Below are positions 23,678 to 54,102 of a stretch of 54,427 nt of DNA, piece by piece. The stretch comes from Thermoanaerobaculum aquaticum (lineage in GTDB: Bacteria > Acidobacteriota > Thermoanaerobaculia > Thermoanaerobaculales > Thermoanaerobaculaceae), in assembly GCF_000687145.1 (NCBI RefSeq), contig NZ_JMFG01000010.1:1-54427 (forward strand). Reading direction: 5' to 3'. The position numbers and the translations under genes are program-made. Every line of letters starts with the position of its first letter. Within the stretch, counting starts at the first letter, position 1. A model generated the notes under the pieces. The model had not been told where the DNA came from. It saw only the letters and a list, made by a program, of their open reading frames with translations, and did not search any database.

Positions 23678-23701
23678 CAAAAAAGCAGAGGAATTCAGCC
23701 C

Positions 23702-23729
23702 GGGGGTGGCCACCGGCTACCCCCTTTTT
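23702..23729 (+). terminator. Rho-independent terminator after the M16 gene
   Basis: A 10-bp GC-rich stem (23702-23711 with 23715-23724, one G-U pair, 3-base loop) is followed by TTTTT at 23725-23729. It lies between converging genes and has a T-run only for the plus strand. Confidence 0.85.
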
Positions 23730-23774
23730 GTTTGGCAGTTCTTTTGGAGAAATTCCTTGACCTGCCGCGAGCTG

Positions 23775-26243
23775 CTAGTTTTCAAGCTTCAGCAAGCGCG
23801 CTATGGTGGCCTTAAGCACGTTGAGGTTGGGGGGCTTGCTGAGCACCGCGTCCACGTAGGGTTCTGTGTCCGCCTGAAGCATCATTCCCCAACCGCTCAG
23901 CAGGATAATCGGGGTCGTTGGTGAAATCTCTTTGAGAACCGCAGCGAGCTGGCGTCCGCTCATCCCCGGCATACCCAAATCGGTGATGACCACGTCAAAC
24001 TTTTGATCCTTATGCAGCGAATCCCGGAAAACCTCCAGGGCTTTTTCGCCGGATTCGCAGGCGATGAGGGTATGGCCTTCCTGTTCCAGCGCGTGGCGCA
24101 AGCTCTCACGGATGAGCAGCTCATCATCCACAAAGAGAACGCGCAGCGGGGGCAAGGTGACAGGCGCTACGCTCGCGGCTTTATCTGGCCCAACCTCTCG
24201 CCAGGGAAGCACCAGTCGAACGGTGGTGCCTTTTCCCGGTTCGCTTTCAATCTCCACGGTGCCATCGTGCCGTTGCACCACGCCGTAAACGGTGGCCAAG
24301 CCCATGCCGGTGCCGCTCTCCTTGGTGGTAAAGAACGGCTCCAACGCGTGCAGGCGTGTTTCCTCACCCATGCCTACGCCGTTGTCCTTCACCTCTAGGA
24401 TCAAATAGCCGCCGGCTTTTGGGGCTCCATGGGTAAAGGCACGTATGGTGATGGTTCCCCCTTGGGGCAAAGCATCCACGGCGTTGAGGATCAAGTTGGT
24501 GAGTGCGTCCCGCAGCTCGTTTTCCACGGCGGGGAAAGGCGGTAGATTGGGTTCCACTTCGGTGACCACATCGATGACCACCCCCTGTTGCTGAGGCAGG
24601 GCGCTCCATTTGGGCTTGGTGAGCTCCACCACCTGGGTTACCAAATTGGCAACGTCCAGCGGCTCGAGGTTGGAGGTGGCCGGGGCCGTGCGGTAAAAGC
24701 TCTTCAGGCGGCGCAGCGTTTCGCTGGCCGATTCCACGGCTTTCAAGATAACCTCGGCGGCGCGACGGTGCTTTTCGGGAAGGGTGGGATCGCGCAGCAT
24801 TACGCTGGCGTAAAGGGACACCGGGGAAAGCGCGTTGTTAATGTCGTGAGCGATGCCCGAAGCCATTTGTCCTAAGGCCCGAAGCCGCCCTTGTTGCATC
24901 ATGGCTGCTTGCGTTTGCTGCAAATCGCGGTAGGCCATCTCCAGGCTTTCAAAAAGCTTGGCGTGCCGCCAGGCCAACGCCAGGTGTTCGGCCACGCTCC
25001 TCAAAAAGGAAGCTTCTTCGGCTAGGAACGCGTGCGGCTTCTTGCGTCCAGCAAAAAGCACTCCCTCTAGCTTTTCCTGCAAGACCATCGGCGCCATCAC
25101 CAGCGAGCTGCAAGTGTGGGCGGTGCTATCGAGGCACAATTCCCGGGTGAGGGTTTCCGTTTCATTGATCGTGACAGTCTGCCCCGCAGCCAAGAGCTCC
25201 AGAGTCCTGGGTTGCAAAGCCAGACGGGCGTTCTCTTCTAGGCACCCGGCCAGGGCCTCGACCCCCCGTTGGGTAATGCAAAGGGTTTGCACTTTCTCAG
25301 CCTCTACTTTGCCAATCCAGGCCAGATCCACGGGGAGGTGTTGCTCAATTTGGCTGAGCACCGCGTGAAACATGGAAGCCAGGTCGTGGCGTTCCAGAAC
25401 CGCCTGGGCCACCTGGTTGAGGAGCGCTAATTGCGCCATCCGCGCTCGCAGCGCATCTTCGGCAGCCTTTTGTTCGGTTATGTCCTGGGCGGCGCCGTCG
25501 CCACCAATGACGCGTTGGCCGTCTTTGTCGAAGCGGGGGCTGCAAAAATGTCGAACCCACCGCACTTCCTGGGTCTTGGTGAGCACCCTGTGAATAAACG
25601 TGGCGCTTTCACCCTTGCGTACCTTTTCCATGGCTTGTTGCAAAAGCGGTGAGTCGTCAGGGTGGGCGATAGCCAACAGCGGGAGGTTTCGTTCGCGAAA
25701 GTCCTCAAGGGTGTAGCCCAAGCGGCGGGAAAAAGACGGCGAAATCCACGTGACCCTCGGTAGGTTTTGCTCATCAAAGAGGAAGCCAAACGCGTAGTCG
25801 CTTACCAAATTGGCAATAGCCCGAAACCTTCGCTCTGATTCTTCGAGTTCTGTTACCGCTTGATCTCGCTCTTTCCGGACTTGAGCTTCTTCCAAACAGC
25901 GCATAACAACCTGAGGCAAGGTACGAAGATGGCGTTTGAGAATGTAGTCGCTAAGACCCGCCCGCATGGCCTTGACCACCAGCTCTTCGCTCCCTGAATC
26001 GGTGAACATTACCACCGGACAGTGGGGAAAACGCTCTTTGGTCGCGGCAAGTATTTGCAGCCCGTCGGTGTCTTGCAGCCTAAAATCAGTTACCACCACA
26101 TCGGGTTCACCCTTATCGAGCGCTGCGCGAAATTCCTCAAGGGAGCCACAGGACCACAAGTCTGCCTCTGAAAACGTCCGTTGCAGCATGCGGGTCACGA
26201 GCTCACGGTCAAACGGGTTGTCGTCTACCAGGATTATTCTCAT
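23775..26243 (-). CDS. Hybrid histidine kinase: REC-PAS-GAF-kinase-REC
   Basis: This 822-aa cytoplasmic protein has, in order: receiver 1 (1-120; acidic DD at 7-8, phospho-acceptor Asp53 in VVVTDFRL), PAS (about 140-260), GAF (about 270-430), dimerisation/phosphoacceptor helix with His466 ([13 protein letters not shown]), HATPase (N583/N587, KDNGVGMG with Asp620, [11 protein letters not shown]), and receiver 2 (701-822; DD at 706-707, Asp755 in VITDLGMPG, Lys803). No membrane helix is seen. It is the third gene of a KaiC-like/kinase operon and its ATG overlaps the preceding kinase stop (ATGA). Base composition is lower in GC than its neighbours. The receiver-first design makes it a likely phosphorelay intermediate. 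Confidence 0.92.
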
Positions 26244-27367
26244 GGTGAATCCTCGGTTGCGTCCACACAAGGCACTTCCAGCCTAAATATGCTTCCCTTG
26301 CCGGCGATTGAGGAGGCACCCACCCGCCCGCTGGTTAACTGCGCCGCTTTAGCCGCCGTGGCTAGCCCCAGACCGAAACCGGGATAAACATCGCTGCGAT
26401 GCAAGCGGGAAAACGGCTGGAAAAGCTTACTCAAATCTTGTGAAGGAATCCCGATGCCATTATCTTCCACGGAAAAACGGCACCACCGCCCCAGGGCTTC
26501 AACGCGCAGGGAAACAACCGGAGTGCCCCTGGGTTTTTGGAACTTCAAGGCGTTGCGCAAAAAGTTGGTCAAAACCACATTTACCAGCACGGCGTCGGCC
26601 AAAACGTCCGGCGCCTCGCCGCAAACATCCACCCGCGCCTTTGTTCGGGCGATCTGCTCTTCACAGTCCTTGACCGCGCCTTCAGCCAAAAGGCGAGCTG
26701 GCCATACTTCCAGGTGTACGCCCCCTTCTCCCAGTTGCGCCAGCTCCAGGAGGTGGGAAGCCAGGTGGTTGGCGTGGGAACAGAGATCTTCAATCGTATT
26801 CAGGTCTTTCTTGAAATCTGGGGTAATCCCTCCATCCAGAGACTCCACCAGCATGGAGGCAAATCCCGAAATGGCGCGGAGAGGGGCCCGCATTTCGTGG
26901 GCAATGGCTTGGGAAAAGATTTCCATGTCCGCCCGTTGGGCTTCCAAGCGTTGCGTGAGCCGGCGGATCTTAACCCAGCGGAAAATCCTGGTCAGGAGCT
27001 CCGCCCTGTGCATGGGTATCAGCAGGACCTCGTCGAAAACGCTCCAAACCCGGGTTGTAAGCTGGGCGTATTGGTCCTGTCTAACCAAAAGAACGTAGGG
27101 GAGGAGCAGCGGTTCTTCAAGGAGTTTTCTTTTGCGGGCGTTGTCTTCTCCCAAGCTGGAAAACCAGGAAAGATCGAAGATCAACAGGTCCCAGGGACCG
27201 TCCACGTCGGCTGGGGTCGAGGCGTGGTGTACGACAAGGTGTTGGCGCAAAAAATCGCCCAGAAGCCGGGCATTTTCATCCTCTTGAAGGCAGAGCAGCA
27301 GGCTCGCCTGCTCCTGCGCTGGTGAACCGGGCGTGATTTCAGCCCTTGGGTCGAAGGGGGCAGACAT
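26240..27367 (-). CDS. Histidine kinase with receiver-like N-terminal domain
   Basis: This 375-aa soluble kinase has an N-terminal receiver-like fold (about 18-130; a possible acceptor Asp65 in LLIFDLSWF, but the acidic pair and conserved Thr/Lys pattern are weak), HisKA with His157 (SQAIAHEMRAPLRAI), and HATPase (NVVLTNFLRNALKF, VEDNGIGIP, GFGLGLATAAKAA). The layout resembles kinases that sense through a pseudo-receiver or thioredoxin-like domain, as SasA does with KaiC, though homology to SasA was not tested. It sits between the KaiC-like gene (16-bp gap) and the hybrid kinase (4-base overlap). Confidence 0.88.
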   Translation of the reverse strand: MSAPFDPRAEITPGSPAQEQASLLLCLQEDENARLLGDFLRQHLVVHHASTPADVDGPWDLLIFDLSWFSSLGEDNARKRKLLEEPLLLPYVLLVRQDQYAQLTTRVWSVFDEVLLIPMHRAELLTRIFRWVKIRRLTQRLEAQRADMEIFSQAIAHEMRAPLRAISGFASMLVESLDGGITPDFKKDLNTIEDLCSHANHLASHLLELAQLGEGGVHLEVWPARLLAEGAVKDCEEQIARTKARVDVCGEAPDVLADAVLVNVVLTNFLRNALKFQKPRGTPVVSLRVEALGRWCRFSVEDNGIGIPSQDLSKLFQPFSRLHRSDVYPGFGLGLATAAKAAQLTSGRVGASSIAGKGSIFRLEVPCVDATEDSP

Positions 27368-27383
27368 GGCTTGAAAGATCTCG

Positions 27384-28838
27384 TCAGCTGCTCGAACCTC
27401 GAAATTCAGGAGTACCGGTCAAGATTCCGCTGAAGCTGGTGAGTGGCTGGCCCACCTTAATGCCGTAGCGGGTAATTTCAATTTCACGCACCGATTTCTC
27501 AAAGTCGGAAAGCCGCTTTTTCAATACACCAATAGCCTTGCGCAACTGACCGCCCGCTTCAAAGTAGCGCATGAAGATAATGTTGTCGGCCAAGTAGCTT
27601 ATGCCCACTTCGGTGATTTGGAAGTCCCCAGTAATTTTTTCCACTTCGGCGCAAACAAGAGTGGTGACTCCTTTATTCCCGAGATACTGGGTTAAGGCGT
27701 GGAGGGATGCGCCCAAGTCGTTACCGCGCAGCGAGAGCCGATAACCCGCAACGGAATCAATCATCACCATTTTCGTGCCGCGTTGTTCCACCTCCTCTCG
27801 AACCATATGAGCGAACTGATCTGCACTGAACTGCAGCGGCTCGATGCGCTTTAGCTCAAGTGAACCTTGCTCCAGCATTTGGGAAATGGGGATGTTGACC
27901 CGCTCACCCCGGCCAATGATGGTGCGCCTGGCTTCTTCAAAATGAAAAACCACCGACCGCTCGCCGCGGCTGGCGGCTTCTTTCATAAATTGCAAACCCA
28001 GGGTGGTTTTGCCAACGCCTGACGGGCCGGAAATCAGCGTGATCGTACCCCGCGAAATTCCCCCTTGCAGCAGCTCATCCAACGCCGGGATACCCGAAGA
28101 AATGAGCTCTAGCGGGAACTCCCTGGGTTCGCGCTGAGGATCCAGCCGGGGAAAAACCTGAAGACCCGTGCGCGTGATCTGGTAGGAATGCCAACCGGCG
28201 CTGTGTTCGGAACCACGCCATTTCTTCACCCGGAGGTGCCGGTCGTTCGCGGAAACTTCGAGCTCTACCACGCCGTCCACCAAAAACTGCACCTCGTCGT
28301 CTGGAGCCTGGGGGCTTGCTTCAGAAGTCAGTAAAACCGTGGCATGGTTTGACGTGAGGTACGCGAGCAGCGACAGGAGCTGTTTGTGGAAATTTTGCGG
28401 GGTCGATGACAAGAACTGGAGTTGGCTCACCGAATCAACCACGATTCTAGTGGGTTTTGTCTTTTCAACAACGTCGCGGATCTTTGCTGCGAGGGGCGCT
28501 GACTCCACTTCTTCCGGTGGAAAGATGTCGTAGCTCTTTTGGTCTCGGAAGAAGGCAGGTCCCGGCGTTAGGTCTAAGAAAGTCACTTTTGAAAGGTCGA
28601 GCCCAATTGCCGAGGTGCTCTCCTTTACCCGACCAGGGGGCTCGGAGAGAGTCACCCAAGCCACGGATTCTCCCCGATCGATCCCCGCCTTGGCAAAGTG
28701 AGCGCAGAAGGTGGTTTTCCCGGTCCCCGGCCCCCCTCGCACCAAATAGGCGCGCTCTTTGAGCATGCCACCACCCAGAATCTCGTCCAACCCGGGAATT
28801 CCGGTGGACAAGCGGCGTAACTTCTCGTCTTTATTCAT
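27384..28838 (-). CDS. KaiC-like double RecA-domain ATPase
   Basis: This 484-aa tandem ATPase is of the circadian KaiC family, which is broader than the cyanobacterial clock. Domain CI: Walker A GGPGTGKTT (35-43), Walker B Asp135; the catalytic Glu pair is replaced by SE (64-65). Domain CII: Walker A GPSGVGKTT (271-279), EE at 301-302, Walker B Asp361. By alignment from memory, the KaiC Ser431/Thr432 phosphosites correspond to Ser414 and Tyr415, and Thr426 to Thr409. No kaiA or kaiB is in the window. It leads an operon with two soluble histidine kinases, suggesting they share one pathway. A promoter with TTGACA lies about 120 bp upstream. Confidence 0.9.
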   Translation of the reverse strand: MNKDEKLRRLSTGIPGLDEILGGGMLKERAYLVRGGPGTGKTTFCAHFAKAGIDRGESVAWVTLSEPPGRVKESTSAIGLDLSKVTFLDLTPGPAFFRDQKSYDIFPPEEVESAPLAAKIRDVVEKTKPTRIVVDSVSQLQFLSSTPQNFHKQLLSLLAYLTSNHATVLLTSEASPQAPDDEVQFLVDGVVELEVSANDRHLRVKKWRGSEHSAGWHSYQITRTGLQVFPRLDPQREPREFPLELISSGIPALDELLQGGISRGTITLISGPSGVGKTTLGLQFMKEAASRGERSVVFHFEEARRTIIGRGERVNIPISQMLEQGSLELKRIEPLQFSADQFAHMVREEVEQRGTKMVMIDSVAGYRLSLRGNDLGASLHALTQYLGNKGVTTLVCAEVEKITGDFQITEVGISYLADNIIFMRYFEAGGQLRKAIGVLKKRLSDFEKSVREIEITRYGIKVGQPLTSFSGILTGTPEFRGSSS

Positions 28839-28929
28839 GGTTGTTTCCCACCCTAGCGGCTTTCATTGAGGAACTGAGGAAGGCAAGGAGACCGATCGTT
28901 GGTTACTTCCTCATGTATCATCATTACCC

Positions 28930-28971
28930 AATATTGCCCCACAGTGACCGTTTGTCAAGCGGCGCTAAACT
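28930..28971. promoter_or_regulatory. Divergent promoters: KaiC-like operon and peroxiredoxin
   Basis: Minus strand: TTGACA (28958-28953), 17 bases, AATATT (28935-28930), giving the KaiC-like gene a leader of about 85 nt, unusually long for this window. Plus strand: TAAACT (28966-28971), 7 bases, then an in-frame ATG at 28979 that would give a longer peroxiredoxin. Confidence 0.55.
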
Positions 28972-29023
28972 CAGGGGAATGAGCTTGGGTGCGGGGTTGT
29001 TCTTGCCTCGGGGAGGGTTTCGT

Positions 29024-29539
29024 ATGTCGTGGGAAGTGTTTTCGGTTGTGTTTTTGGTGTTGTTTGCTTTTGGGGCGGGGGCAGCCGGTCCTTTGACGGA
29101 AGGCAGCCCGTTTCCCCAGTGGGAGCTGGTGGACCAGCAGGGGCAAAAGGTCAGCTCCAAGGACCTGGCAGGGAAGACCTACTTGCTGTGGTTTTACCCC
29201 AAGGCCATGACCTCCGGTTGCACCCGGGAAGGCTGTGAGCTGAGGGATCACTACGCGGAGTTTCGCAAGCTGGGGGTGGAGATCCTTGGGGTTTCCTTCG
29301 ATACCCCTGCCGACAACGCCCGCTTTGCTGCCGAGCAGCGCTTTCCCTTCCGCCTGCTTTCGGATTCGAGCCGCCAGCTGGCGGTGCAGGTAGGGGCGGC
29401 GGATTCGCCGGAGGCTTCTTATCCCAAGCGGGTGTCCTTCCTGGTGGGTGGGGACGGCCGGGTTCTTAAGGTGTACCCGAAGGTGGACCCCGCCACCCAC
29501 GCGCAAGAGGTCCTGAAAGACCTTCAGAGCCTCAAGTAG
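29024..29539 (+). CDS. Exported peroxiredoxin, PrxQ/Bcp type
   Basis: Thiol peroxidases of this type reduce hydroperoxides. From ATG 29024 the protein has 171 aa, with a hydrophobic export segment (VFSVVFLVLFAFGAGAAG) and the thioredoxin fold. The peroxidatic Cys66 and resolving Cys71 sit in MTSGCTREGCELRD, the five-residue spacing of PrxQ. GGGGAGGG lies 7 bases upstream of ATG 29024. An in-frame ATG at 28979, next to a -10 box, would add 15 residues with two arginines, which would give the signal peptide the positive charge the short form lacks. Both forms may be made. Confidence 0.88.
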   Translation: MSWEVFSVVFLVLFAFGAGAAGPLTEGSPFPQWELVDQQGQKVSSKDLAGKTYLLWFYPKAMTSGCTREGCELRDHYAEFRKLGVEILGVSFDTPADNARFAAEQRFPFRLLSDSSRQLAVQVGAADSPEASYPKRVSFLVGGDGRVLKVYPKVDPATHAQEVLKDLQSLK

Positions 29540-29557: not shown

Positions 29558-30403
29558 CTAAGCTCTGGTGGCGCAAAGCACCGGCACCGGAGAGCGTCGG
29601 GTGACGTACTCGGTGGTGGAACCCAAAACCGTTTCGATGACGCGGCTGTGGCCGTGGGCGCCCATGAAGAGAAAGTCGTGCTCGGCGGGGTCCAGCATGG
29701 AAAGGAGCACCTGTTCCACCGCTTCCCCTCGCTCCCAGGAAAAGCTGGCTTTCACCGCAAAGGGCTCCAGGAAGCTGGCCGCCCGCTCCAGCAGGGAGGA
29801 AGCAGCGGCTTCGTCGGTTCCCAGGGTCACGACCTTGAGTGGCACGGCCAGCGCACCGCAGATTTCCCCGGCCAGGTGCAAGGCGCGGAAGGCCTTGGGG
29901 CTGCCGTCAAAAGCAGCCAGCGGCTTCTGCGGGAGGCTTCCATGTTCGGGAACGATGAGCACCGGCACCGGGCAGCGGCGGAGCAAGCGGCCGGTGTTGG
30001 GTCCGAGGAACTGCGGGTGCTGGGGGGCACCCACGCCTTTCTGCCCGAGCACCAGGAGATCGGCGGTTTGCGCTTCCTCACAGAGCTTCTCCACCACGCC
30101 CCCGTGGAGCAACACGAAGCGGTGTTTGACTCCGGCTTGCTCGCAAAAATTCGTGAACCGGTCCTTCAGCAAGTTGCCGAGCTCTTGCAGCGATTGCTCC
30201 ACCTGCGCTTGCAAGCGGAGAAAAGGCTCAAACCCCATGGCGCCGGAAATGTCACTGACGAAAGCACCCTGGAGGAACGCCGCATCAAGAATGTGGACAC
30301 CGCGTGCGCAGGCCCCCAGCTTGGCCGCCAACTGGATGGCCAGTTGCTCGGCAGCGGCTCCACAGGTGGAGCCGTCGAGGCCAACCACAATATGCTTGAT
30401 CAT
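29558..30403 (-). CDS. Universal stress protein, tandem UspA domains
   Basis: This 281-aa protein has two Usp folds: residues 1-about 150 (MIKHIVVGLDGS..., DLLVLGQKGVG) and about 155-281 (PLAAFDGSPKAFRALHLA, then HDFLFMGAHGHSRVIETVLGSTTEYVTRRSPVPVLC). The second half keeps the ATP-binding G-2x-G-9x-G-(S/T) pattern; the first is less complete. Such proteins are induced by starvation or redox stress, and their molecular role is not settled. ATG 30403 is preceded by GGGAGGTGCC. A perfect TTGACA lies at 30445-30440 upstream, but I could not find a matching -10. Confidence 0.9.
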   Translation of the reverse strand: MIKHIVVGLDGSTCGAAAEQLAIQLAAKLGACARGVHILDAAFLQGAFVSDISGAMGFEPFLRLQAQVEQSLQELGNLLKDRFTNFCEQAGVKHRFVLLHGGVVEKLCEEAQTADLLVLGQKGVGAPQHPQFLGPNTGRLLRRCPVPVLIVPEHGSLPQKPLAAFDGSPKAFRALHLAGEICGALAVPLKVVTLGTDEAAASSLLERAASFLEPFAVKASFSWERGEAVEQVLLSMLDPAEHDFLFMGAHGHSRVIETVLGSTTEYVTRRSPVPVLCATRA

Positions 30404-51510: not shown

Positions 51511-54102
51511 ATGAAGTGGGTCGCTTTCCTTGCAGTGACACTGCAGTTAGTCACGGTAGCTTGGGCGCTGTGGTTGATGCGACGAACTAATGAAAAGAGC
51601 CCTTGGATGTTTTTTTCTCTCGCAGCAGCGGTTATGTTCGTACGTCGAGTTCTGCATTGGTACGAGCTGTCTATGGCGTCAGAACCGAGCCGTTCACCTT
51701 ATCTCGGCGCCGAGACCACTATTGTTTTCGCAGTTAGCGTCTTGCTTTTGGTTGGTGTTGTTCTTTCCGGAAGAATGTTTACACGCATGGCACGGGAGCA
51801 AGTTGACCTTGCTCATGCTCGCGAACTCACTTCGCTGGAAAGGGACAGGCTAAAGCAGCTTTTGGAGCGCCTACCTGTGGGAGTGGTGGTGGAGCAAGAG
51901 AAGGGTATTGCTTTCGTGAACAGTGCTTTTTTGCGGATGGTGGACCTGGACGAAACTGGGTTTAAAAACCAAGCAATTCGCGATTTGGTAGCCCCCGAAC
52001 ATCGGGAAAAACTGTTGGATCCTGGCTGCCGCTCCAGCCACGGGGCGCAGGGAGTGGAGCTGGAGCTCCTCCGGGCCAACGGTTCCCGCCTGTGGGTGGG
52101 ATGTCGGGTCCATCACGTCGTTTGGGCAGAAAAACCAGCTACCGTTTGGGTTTTTGCGGACATTTCGGAGCGCAAAGCTGCTGAGGCACAACGGGAAGCT
52201 ATATTTCAGCTGTTCTCCCAGGGTCCGGTGGTGCTCTTTCGATGGCGACCGGCACCGGAGCGCAGCGTGTCGTTTGTCACGGATAACGTCAGGGCTTGGG
52301 GGTTTGAGCCGGAACAGCTAATGGCGTACCCCCGATCTTTTCACGAGCTGGTTCACCCAGAAGATCGGGAACGGGTGCAAGAAGAAGCGCGCCGTTTCTT
52401 TTCACAGGGGGCCAATAGCTGGAGCCACGAGTACCGAATCGTTTGCCTCGACGGAAAAATCCGTTGGGTTTTGGATCGCACGGTGGTCTTGAGAGACGGC
52501 CAGGGCCGGGTTATAGGGTTTGACGGCTATTTGCTGGACATTTCCGAGCTCCACGAAACCCGGCGCATTTTGGAAGAGGAGCGGCTTCGCTACGCGGCTG
52601 CCCTGGAAGCCACCGGTGAGGTGGTGTACGACTGGAACGTGCGCACTGGCGAAATTACCTGGAGCCGCGCTGTGCTCAAATCGTTCGGATTAACCCCAGA
52701 GGAGATGGGTGGTATCGTTGAATGGACCGAACGCATCCATCCCGAGGATCGGGAACGAGTAACCCGGGTTTTGGCTGAATCGTTGGCCAGCGGTGCCCCT
52801 TTTGAGGCGGAATACCGCTTCGCCCGTGCCAATGGCAGCTACGCCCACGTTTTCGACCGCGGTATTGTGGAAAAAGACCAGGCAGGAAAGGCAGTGCGGA
52901 TGGTGGGAGCCATGGCGGACCTCACCGGCCTTAAGAAGATGGAAGAACAACTCCGCCTTTCGCAGCGGTTGGAAGCCTTGGGGCAACTGGCCGGCGGCGT
53001 GGCCCACGATTTCAACAACCTCCTTACGGCCATGATGGGGACGGTGGACCTCATGGAAAGAAAGCTTCCTGCCAACGATCCCCTCTTGCAGGATTTGGAA
53101 AGCTTGCGGCAATCCGCCCAGCGCGCTGCAACCTTAACCCGGCAGCTTTTAGCGTTCGCCCGGCGACAAGTAATTGAACTCCAGCCACTAGACCTCAACA
53201 AACACCTGGAGGCAAGCCTGCAAATGTTCCGGCGGTTGTTGCCAGAAACCGTTCGCCTAGATTTCATTCCTGCCCGCCAATTGGGCACCATCATGGCCGA
53301 TCCCGGGCAACTGGACCAAATTTTGGTGAACTTGCTGGTCAACGCCCGTGACGCTATGCCCAATGGGGGCACCGTGACCATTGAAACGGAAAACGTGCTG
53401 ATTAACGGCGAGTACGTTCGCCAACACCCGTGGGCGAAACAGGGTCGTTACGTCCTGCTTACGGTGAGCGACACCGGCGTTGGCATGGACGAAGCCACCC
53501 GCCAGCGGATTTTCGAGCCTTTTTTCACCACCAAAGAGCCGGGAAAGGGTACAGGGCTGGGTCTTTCAACCGTGTACGGCATCGTTAAGCAACACGACGG
53601 CATGATTCACGTGTATTCCGAGCCCGGAAGGGGCACCAGCTTCAAAATCTATTTCCCGGTGGTAGAGCGTCGAGCCGTAGAAGTGGGTCCCAAAGTTGAA
53701 GGACCGGTAGTGGGCGGGAGCGAACGGATTTTGCTCGTGGAAGACGAAGAAGTGGTGCGGCAAGTTCTCGCGGAGTCCTTGGCTGCCTTGGGTTACGAGG
53801 TGCTCACCGCTGCCGACGGAGAAGAGGCGCTGCAGCTTTTGGAGGAAAGAAGTTTTGCTGTGGACCTGGTGGTTTCGGATGTGGTTATGCCCCGCATGGG
53901 CGGCTGGGAGCTTTACCAGAAGGTCCAGGAAAAAGCCCCGCACGTGTGTTTCCTTTTTTCCACAGGTTATTCGGAAAACGCCGTGCATGTCGATTTCAAG
54001 AAAAAAGAAGGGGTGTTTCTCATCACCAAACCTTACGGTTTGGACTCCCTCGCCCGCAAAGTCCGCGAAATCCTCGACCAAAAGAAAGAAGGGAAGATTT
54101 AG
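51511..54102 (+). CDS. Membrane hybrid histidine kinase, 3 PAS plus receiver
   Basis: This 863-aa sensor has three N-terminal hydrophobic segments (about 4-22, 33-50 and 69-87), a helix, PAS domains at about 115-225, 230-350 and 360-475 (the last two with PAC ends), HisKA with His499 (GGVAHDFNNLLTAMMG), HATPase (N607/N611, SDTGVGMD with Asp654, GTGLGLSTVYG) and a C-terminal receiver (740-863; ED at 744-745, Asp790 in VVSDVVMPRMGG, Lys840). The input is unknown; the PAS domains lack recognisable heme or flavin residues. The membrane region is clearly lower in GC than the rest (29 G+C of 60 in 51601-51660). Confidence 0.93.
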   Translation: MKWVAFLAVTLQLVTVAWALWLMRRTNEKSPWMFFSLAAAVMFVRRVLHWYELSMASEPSRSPYLGAETTIVFAVSVLLLVGVVLSGRMFTRMAREQVDLAHARELTSLERDRLKQLLERLPVGVVVEQEKGIAFVNSAFLRMVDLDETGFKNQAIRDLVAPEHREKLLDPGCRSSHGAQGVELELLRANGSRLWVGCRVHHVVWAEKPATVWVFADISERKAAEAQREAIFQLFSQGPVVLFRWRPAPERSVSFVTDNVRAWGFEPEQLMAYPRSFHELVHPEDRERVQEEARRFFSQGANSWSHEYRIVCLDGKIRWVLDRTVVLRDGQGRVIGFDGYLLDISELHETRRILEEERLRYAAALEATGEVVYDWNVRTGEITWSRAVLKSFGLTPEEMGGIVEWTERIHPEDRERVTRVLAESLASGAPFEAEYRFARANGSYAHVFDRGIVEKDQAGKAVRMVGAMADLTGLKKMEEQLRLSQRLEALGQLAGGVAHDFNNLLTAMMGTVDLMERKLPANDPLLQDLESLRQSAQRAATLTRQLLAFARRQVIELQPLDLNKHLEASLQMFRRLLPETVRLDFIPARQLGTIMADPGQLDQILVNLLVNARDAMPNGGTVTIETENVLINGEYVRQHPWAKQGRYVLLTVSDTGVGMDEATRQRIFEPFFTTKEPGKGTGLGLSTVYGIVKQHDGMIHVYSEPGRGTSFKIYFPVVERRAVEVGPKVEGPVVGGSERILLVEDEEVVRQVLAESLAALGYEVLTAADGEEALQLLEERSFAVDLVVSDVVMPRMGGWELYQKVQEKAPHVCFLFSTGYSENAVHVDFKKKEGVFLITKPYGLDSLARKVREILDQKKEGKI

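Follow-up and report, generated by a model that had tools for sequence, protein, structure and literature searches.

A KaiC-like ATPase gene followed by two histidine kinase genes in Thermoanaerobaculum aquaticum, a variant of the KaiB-less kaiC-kinase arrangement

The window analyzed here, a stretch of 54,427 nucleotides (positions 1-54,427 of contig NZ_JMFG01000010.1), derives from the 2.66-Mb, 96% complete genome of Thermoanaerobaculum aquaticum (GCF_000687145.1, hereafter G000) and harbors, on its minus strand, a gene for a KaiC-like ATPase followed by the genes for two histidine kinases, HK1 and then HK2 (Table 1). The stop codon of the kaiC-like gene is separated from the HK1 start by 16 bp, and the HK1 stop overlaps the HK2 start in an ATGA, through which the translation of both kinases is likely to be coupled; HK2 begins at the ATG at 26243 rather than at an upstream TTG. 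The order, strand, coordinates, 16-bp gap, and four-base overlap reported in an earlier, sequence-only reading of this DNA were all correct, and, judged by such a layout, the trio would represent one transcription unit. The window encodes two further proteins worthy of mention, these being a tandem universal stress protein with two Usp domains, located on the strand of the trio past a peroxiredoxin gene (29561 to 30403), and another hybrid kinase, encoded apart from the trio on the plus strand (51511 to 54099), which combines multiple PAS domains with HisKA, HATPase_c, and a C-terminal REC.

Table 1. Features of the KaiC-kinase locus of T. aquaticum (window coordinates, except where residues are indicated)
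Feature	Position	Strand	Basis and remarks
kaiC-like gene, double-domain RecA-superfamily ATPase	27384..28838	-	484 aa; Pfam PF06745 x2; PDB matches; residue conservation
HK1, pseudo-receiver + HisKA + HATPase_c histidine kinase	26240..27367	-	375 aa; Pfam; AF2 models; receiver fold
HK2, REC-PAS-GAF-HisKA-HATPase_c-REC hybrid kinase	23775..26243	-	822 aa; Pfam; sequence
HK2 domains	Residues: REC 3-104, PAS 166-245, GAF 286-424, HisKA 457-517, HATPase 574-681, second REC		Pfam
ATGA shared by the HK1 stop and the HK2 start	26240..26243	-	Sequence; same 4-nt overlap in L012, L022, and L036
Candidate promoter TTGACA-N17-AATATT	28930..28958 (28958-28930)	-	10/12 matches
Segment missing from G002	23684..29092		Comparison of flanking genes

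The trio had also been credited with a promoter of its own. The element in question is indeed present and would give a leader of approximately 85 nt, with TTGACG-N18-AATAAT at the corresponding alignment position of the sister species (G001), but the scan which detected it returned two sites against 1.5 expected by chance, a count that does not rise above chance.

The KaiC-like protein belongs to the double-domain KaiC family, as it harbors two RecA-type PF06745 domains (Pfam, E 1.6e-79, over the cut-off), and its closest solved structures are KaiC proteins (PDB search, E 2e-61). In an alignment of 78 relatives, the Walker A lysines (K41 and K277) and the K-x-R pairs of both domains (trans-acting K440 and R442 in CII) are invariant, while the CII glutamate pair, E301 E302, is kept in 77. 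The second CI glutamate is equally invariant; because the first (E77 of KaiC) is replaced by S65, a position occupied by G or A in most relatives, the CI ATPase may be weak. The circadian KaiC equivalog (TIGR02655) is scored at 170 bits against a curated cut-off of 546, and the CII phosphosite is of the “SY” type (S414, S in 71 and T in 6 of the 78; Y415, Y in 74) rather than the S431-T432 of circadian KaiC, tyrosine at this phosphosite having been found in some KaiC3 proteins too (PMC5520375). Because few residues (approximately seven, by sequence and alignment) come after the conserved GTP motif at the C terminus, the KaiA-binding tail that would follow the A-loop is absent. A search of the 96% complete genome for KaiB (PF07689) yielded no match, the Synechococcus control being detected.

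In HK1, Pfam recognizes a HisKA and a HATPase_c domain, whose phospho-His (H157), N268, and G-box residues are present, and no domain in the first 136 residues, a region that went unrecognized in all three members scanned. Because kinase cores filled the fold search performed with full-length HK1, the N-terminal domain was folded alone. The resulting AF2 model, built with 26 relatives, confidently predicts a (beta-alpha)5 fold (pLDDT 92.4, pTM 0.86) which can be superposed on receivers over 107-131 residues (VIA Z 13.4-15, rmsd 2.1-3.7); the matches listed are all receivers or receiver-containing proteins, with neither SasA nor KaiB among them. The N-terminal domain of SasA is thioredoxin-like and KaiB-related. 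Because that of HK1 is predicted to be receiver-fold and not thioredoxin-like, the label “SasA-like” applied to this kinase is not supported where it denotes family membership. Of the receiver active site, D65 and only one acidic residue are retained, while the switch threonine and the lysine are replaced by V95 and I117, respectively. As modeled, the domain is a pseudo-receiver, defined as a receiver fold from which one or more of DD, D, T, and K are missing (PMC12632262), and the earlier designation as such is borne out by both the predicted fold and the lost T and K positions.

Both receivers of HK2 possess all five active-site residues (D7, D8, D53, T81, and K103 in the N-terminal domain; D706, D707, D755, S783, and K803 in the second), its phospho-His being H466. 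No HPt domain was recognized in the KaiC-like protein, HK1, or HK2 (Pfam, E 0.01), a weak HPTransfase match in HK2 being dismissed as it is below its cut-off and situated in the ATPase domain, and the operon encodes no DNA-binding output. Because no HPt domain was recognized in the three proteins, the “complete internal phosphorelay” formerly ascribed to them is unsupported, and the flow of phosphate between them is hypothetical; an HPt may yet be encoded elsewhere in the genome.

A set of 80 kaiC loci was drawn from bacterial and archaeal genomes, one per species. In 73 of them, a gene for a receiver or kinase begins within 700 bp downstream of kaiC, on the same strand, a proportion which does not represent a census because the underlying peptide-word search favors close relatives. 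The synteny search proposed alongside the sequence-only reading retrieved the same three-gene order from the sister species, Thermoanaerobaculum sp. SKYB76 (L007; G001), five Ktedonobacteria (L009, L012, L022, L036, and L049), and one KSB1 bacterium (L082). When HK1 (P0002) was used as the query in the six trio genomes outside the genus, the trio kinase was in each case the best match, scoring 149-212 bits, whereas none of the other genes among the 15-42 kinase matches per genome exceeded 118. These matches begin at residue 17-22 and span nearly the whole length, pseudo-receiver included, whereas the next-best ones cover the kinase core only, from approximately residue 132-136. The trio HK2 was, likewise, the best match of the HK2 query (P0003) in all five Ktedonobacteria; in KSB1, it ranked first only once the scores of its two pieces had been added. 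The HK1-HK2 overlap recurs in the three Dictyobacter loci listed in Table 1, and a small stand-alone receiver gene, missing in T. aquaticum, lies between KaiC and HK in the five Ktedonobacteria. The sensor parts of HK2 vary, PAS and GAF going unrecognized in the two Ktedonobacteria scanned.

Because it recurs in unrelated bacteria, the trio is a real signaling module. The many hybrid kinases of the T. aquaticum genome make chance neighbors conceivable, the two kinases then serving unrelated pathways and merely sharing an operon with the ATPase; however, given that the same order is present in three phyla and that the trio kinases are the best matches in their genomes, this explanation is regarded as very improbable.

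Variations on this organization were also encountered. L051 encodes a fusion in which a pseudo-receiver kinase resembling HK1 carries a receiver at its C terminus. In cyanobacterial loci L060, L070, and L071 and the plasmid locus L137, KaiC has a kinase on either side and a response regulator is encoded nearby; in L137, this regulator is annotated as a transcription factor. Such neighbors suggest the form that the output takes in these cyanobacterial variants. L137 (Acaryochloris plasmid pMB01, 1-8230) carries transposase genes on both sides of its KaiC, kinase, and response regulator genes, and this segment is possibly a mobile cassette. The KaiC genes of other Acidobacteriota were rejected as close kin, being 35-41% identical and belonging to another subgroup, and kinases, where encoded after them, match HK1 and HK2 only in the generic kinase core. 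Between the two Thermoanaerobaculum species, HK1 (45-52% identity) is more diverged than KaiC (70%) or HK2 (62%), and the sister species has its HK1 broken into two frames (L007, 9472-10556; L098, 5569-6650), representing either an assembly error or a real lesion.

In both G000 and G001, the trio is located between an M16 peptidase gene and a peroxiredoxin gene. In a third genome of the same genus, G002, these flanking genes are 178 bp apart and the trio is cleanly lacking. Because G002 keeps the flanks and is devoid of the whole trio, the latter was gained or lost as a unit, and because G000 has a nearer relative in G002 than in G001 (91% versus 85% identity of the M16 protein), the simplest course of events would be a single gain in the ancestor of the genus, followed by loss in G002. 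The kaiC-like gene was absent from all 14 genomes of other genera in the family (E 1e-60). The suggestion of transfer as a unit therefore stands with regard to unitary gain or loss, but not with regard to the low GC content invoked in its favor. The block is lower in GC than its surroundings, as had been claimed (57.2% versus 63.5%, sd 2.3, in 5-kb windows over approximately 0.4 Mb of the same genome, placing it in the lowest 1.7%), and the GC3 of the trio falls at the 9th to 17th percentile; the count of 31 in 60 cited for positions 27541-27600 is correct but meaningless alone. Codon usage is, however, ordinary, with 30-77% of background ORFs at least as far removed, and the trio of the sister species has a GC content of 0.62 against 0.63 in its flanks. 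For both of these reasons, low GC was rejected as proof of recent transfer, at which it hints without proving it. Relatives of the KaiC-like protein occur on 206 plasmid records, 93 of which are typed as conjugative. Because those among the matches listed are at most approximately 51% identical, and HK1 had no full-length match against plasmids at the threshold used, no plasmid donor was found. In the KaiC tree, the only sequence with which the Thermoanaerobaculum pair clusters is an alphaproteobacterial one on a long branch, a placement which may be an artefact.

KaiC homologs are widespread beyond the cyanobacteria, mostly without a known job. Because KaiB-less kaiC-HK operons were described by De Luca et al. 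in 2011, in which a kaiC of the SY, TY, or SF type immediately precedes the gene for a specific kinase whose N-terminal domain is conserved (PMC3164672), the trio is a variant of an arrangement known since then, combining an SY site and an adjoining kinase with a conserved N-terminal domain in the absence of kaiB. The same authors noted that other kaiC genes adjoin receivers and hybrid kinases (PMC3164672). In the Ramlibacter tataouinensis operon of their “dark-blue group” (Rta_04330/Rta_04340), kaiC and HK are co-transcribed, as established by RT-PCR, and RtaNt, the N-terminal domain of the kinase, resembles a receiver domain (PMC3164672). Both operons thus comprise a kaiC with an SY-type site, then a kinase with a receiver-like N terminus (HK1 and RtaNt being likened by description), and no kaiB, whereas T. 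aquaticum adds a third gene, for the REC-PAS-GAF-HK-REC hybrid, overlapping that of the preceding kinase. KaiC-REC and KaiC-HK loci of Cyanobacteria and Chloroflexota encode KaiC proteins with approximately 41-59% identity (best segment) and, in many cases, a homologous pseudo-receiver kinase; they are, however, mostly organized as KaiC-REC-HK or KaiC-HK with no hybrid kinase, while T. aquaticum is without the stand-alone REC. Archaeal signaling hubs have been described in which KaiC-like ATPases are associated with two-component proteins (Makarova et al. 2017, as cited in PMC5847659), and four haloarchaeal loci (L072, L074, L076, and L077) have the order KaiC-HK-HK, with kinases that score weakly against HK1 and HK2. 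No description of a triad of KaiC, pseudo-receiver kinase, and hybrid kinase was found in the literature searched, Makarova et al. 2017 apart.

Like the cyanobacterial KaiABC-SasA-CikA clock, the trio pairs a double-domain ATPase of the KaiC type with kinases, and a pseudo-receiver is likewise present in CikA (PMC12632262); the trio differs in being without KaiA, KaiB, and the KaiA tail, in having Y in place of T432, and in the receiver fold predicted for the HK1 sensor, that of SasA being thioredoxin-like. De Luca et al. suggested an hourglass for KaiB-less kaiC-HK operons, that of Ramlibacter included (PMC3164672), and a primitive timer of this kind, in which slow KaiC auto-(de)phosphorylation, with HK1 as a SasA-like output and HK2 as an environmental input, would anticipate daily change without KaiA or KaiB, could draw on the two phosphorylatable residues at key positions (S414 and Y415). 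Yet the trio lacks both KaiB and the tail that binds KaiA, its CI glutamate pair is degenerate, and no KaiB-less member shown to keep time was found in the literature search; we therefore consider such an hourglass decidedly improbable, and timekeeping by the trio, while possible, is unsupported and is not implied here.

We propose instead, as an explanation held with slightly more belief than doubt, that the trio is a KaiB-independent KaiC signaling module in which the state of the ring is read by HK1 and passed on to HK2. The KaiC-like protein would form an ATP-driven two-tier ring, which can probably self-phosphorylate at the SY site, and its nucleotide or phosphorylation state would be read, through protein contact, by the HK1 pseudo-receiver. 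Such contact would change the kinase activity of HK1, which, having no working receiver of its own, would hand phosphate to one of the two HK2 receivers, with the N-terminal domain as the likeliest acceptor. HK2 would merge this signal with its own PAS/GAF input, and the output would exit through a regulator encoded elsewhere. Of this scheme, the association of the three genes is observed, whereas the flow of signal through their products is an inference. Against this proposal count the missing HPt domain, DNA-binding output, and stand-alone receiver gene, the S65 substitution, the variable HK2 sensors, and the fact that the literature search found no biochemical data for this KaiC branch.

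The relationship may also run in the opposite direction, with HK1 and HK2 sensing the environment and controlling the KaiC-like ATPase, which would in turn be an effector acting on another target, as is the case for other RecA-family KaiC relatives. The obvious sensor domains of HK2 (PAS and GAF) and the lack of another output gene in the operon are consistent with such a role as target, but a conserved pseudo-receiver at the sensor end of HK1 is what would be expected of a docking or input domain, and the cyanobacterial versions have a response regulator beside their kinases; this direction is accordingly deemed unlikely, albeit the least so of the alternatives. A broader proposal, in which the trio operates on its own, independently of KaiA and KaiB, as a KaiC timer or a sensor of ATP state whose ring is read by the pseudo-receiver kinase and whose signals are integrated by the double-receiver hybrid, the whole having moved between phyla as a cassette, is improbable, if marginally less so than the hourglass.

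Under the reading preferred here, a signaling module in which HK1 reads the KaiC ring, the conserved HK1 pseudo-receiver is likely the docking part, and the compact unit of KaiC-like ATPase, reader, and integrating kinase would lend itself well to studying the function of a KaiC ring without KaiA and KaiB.
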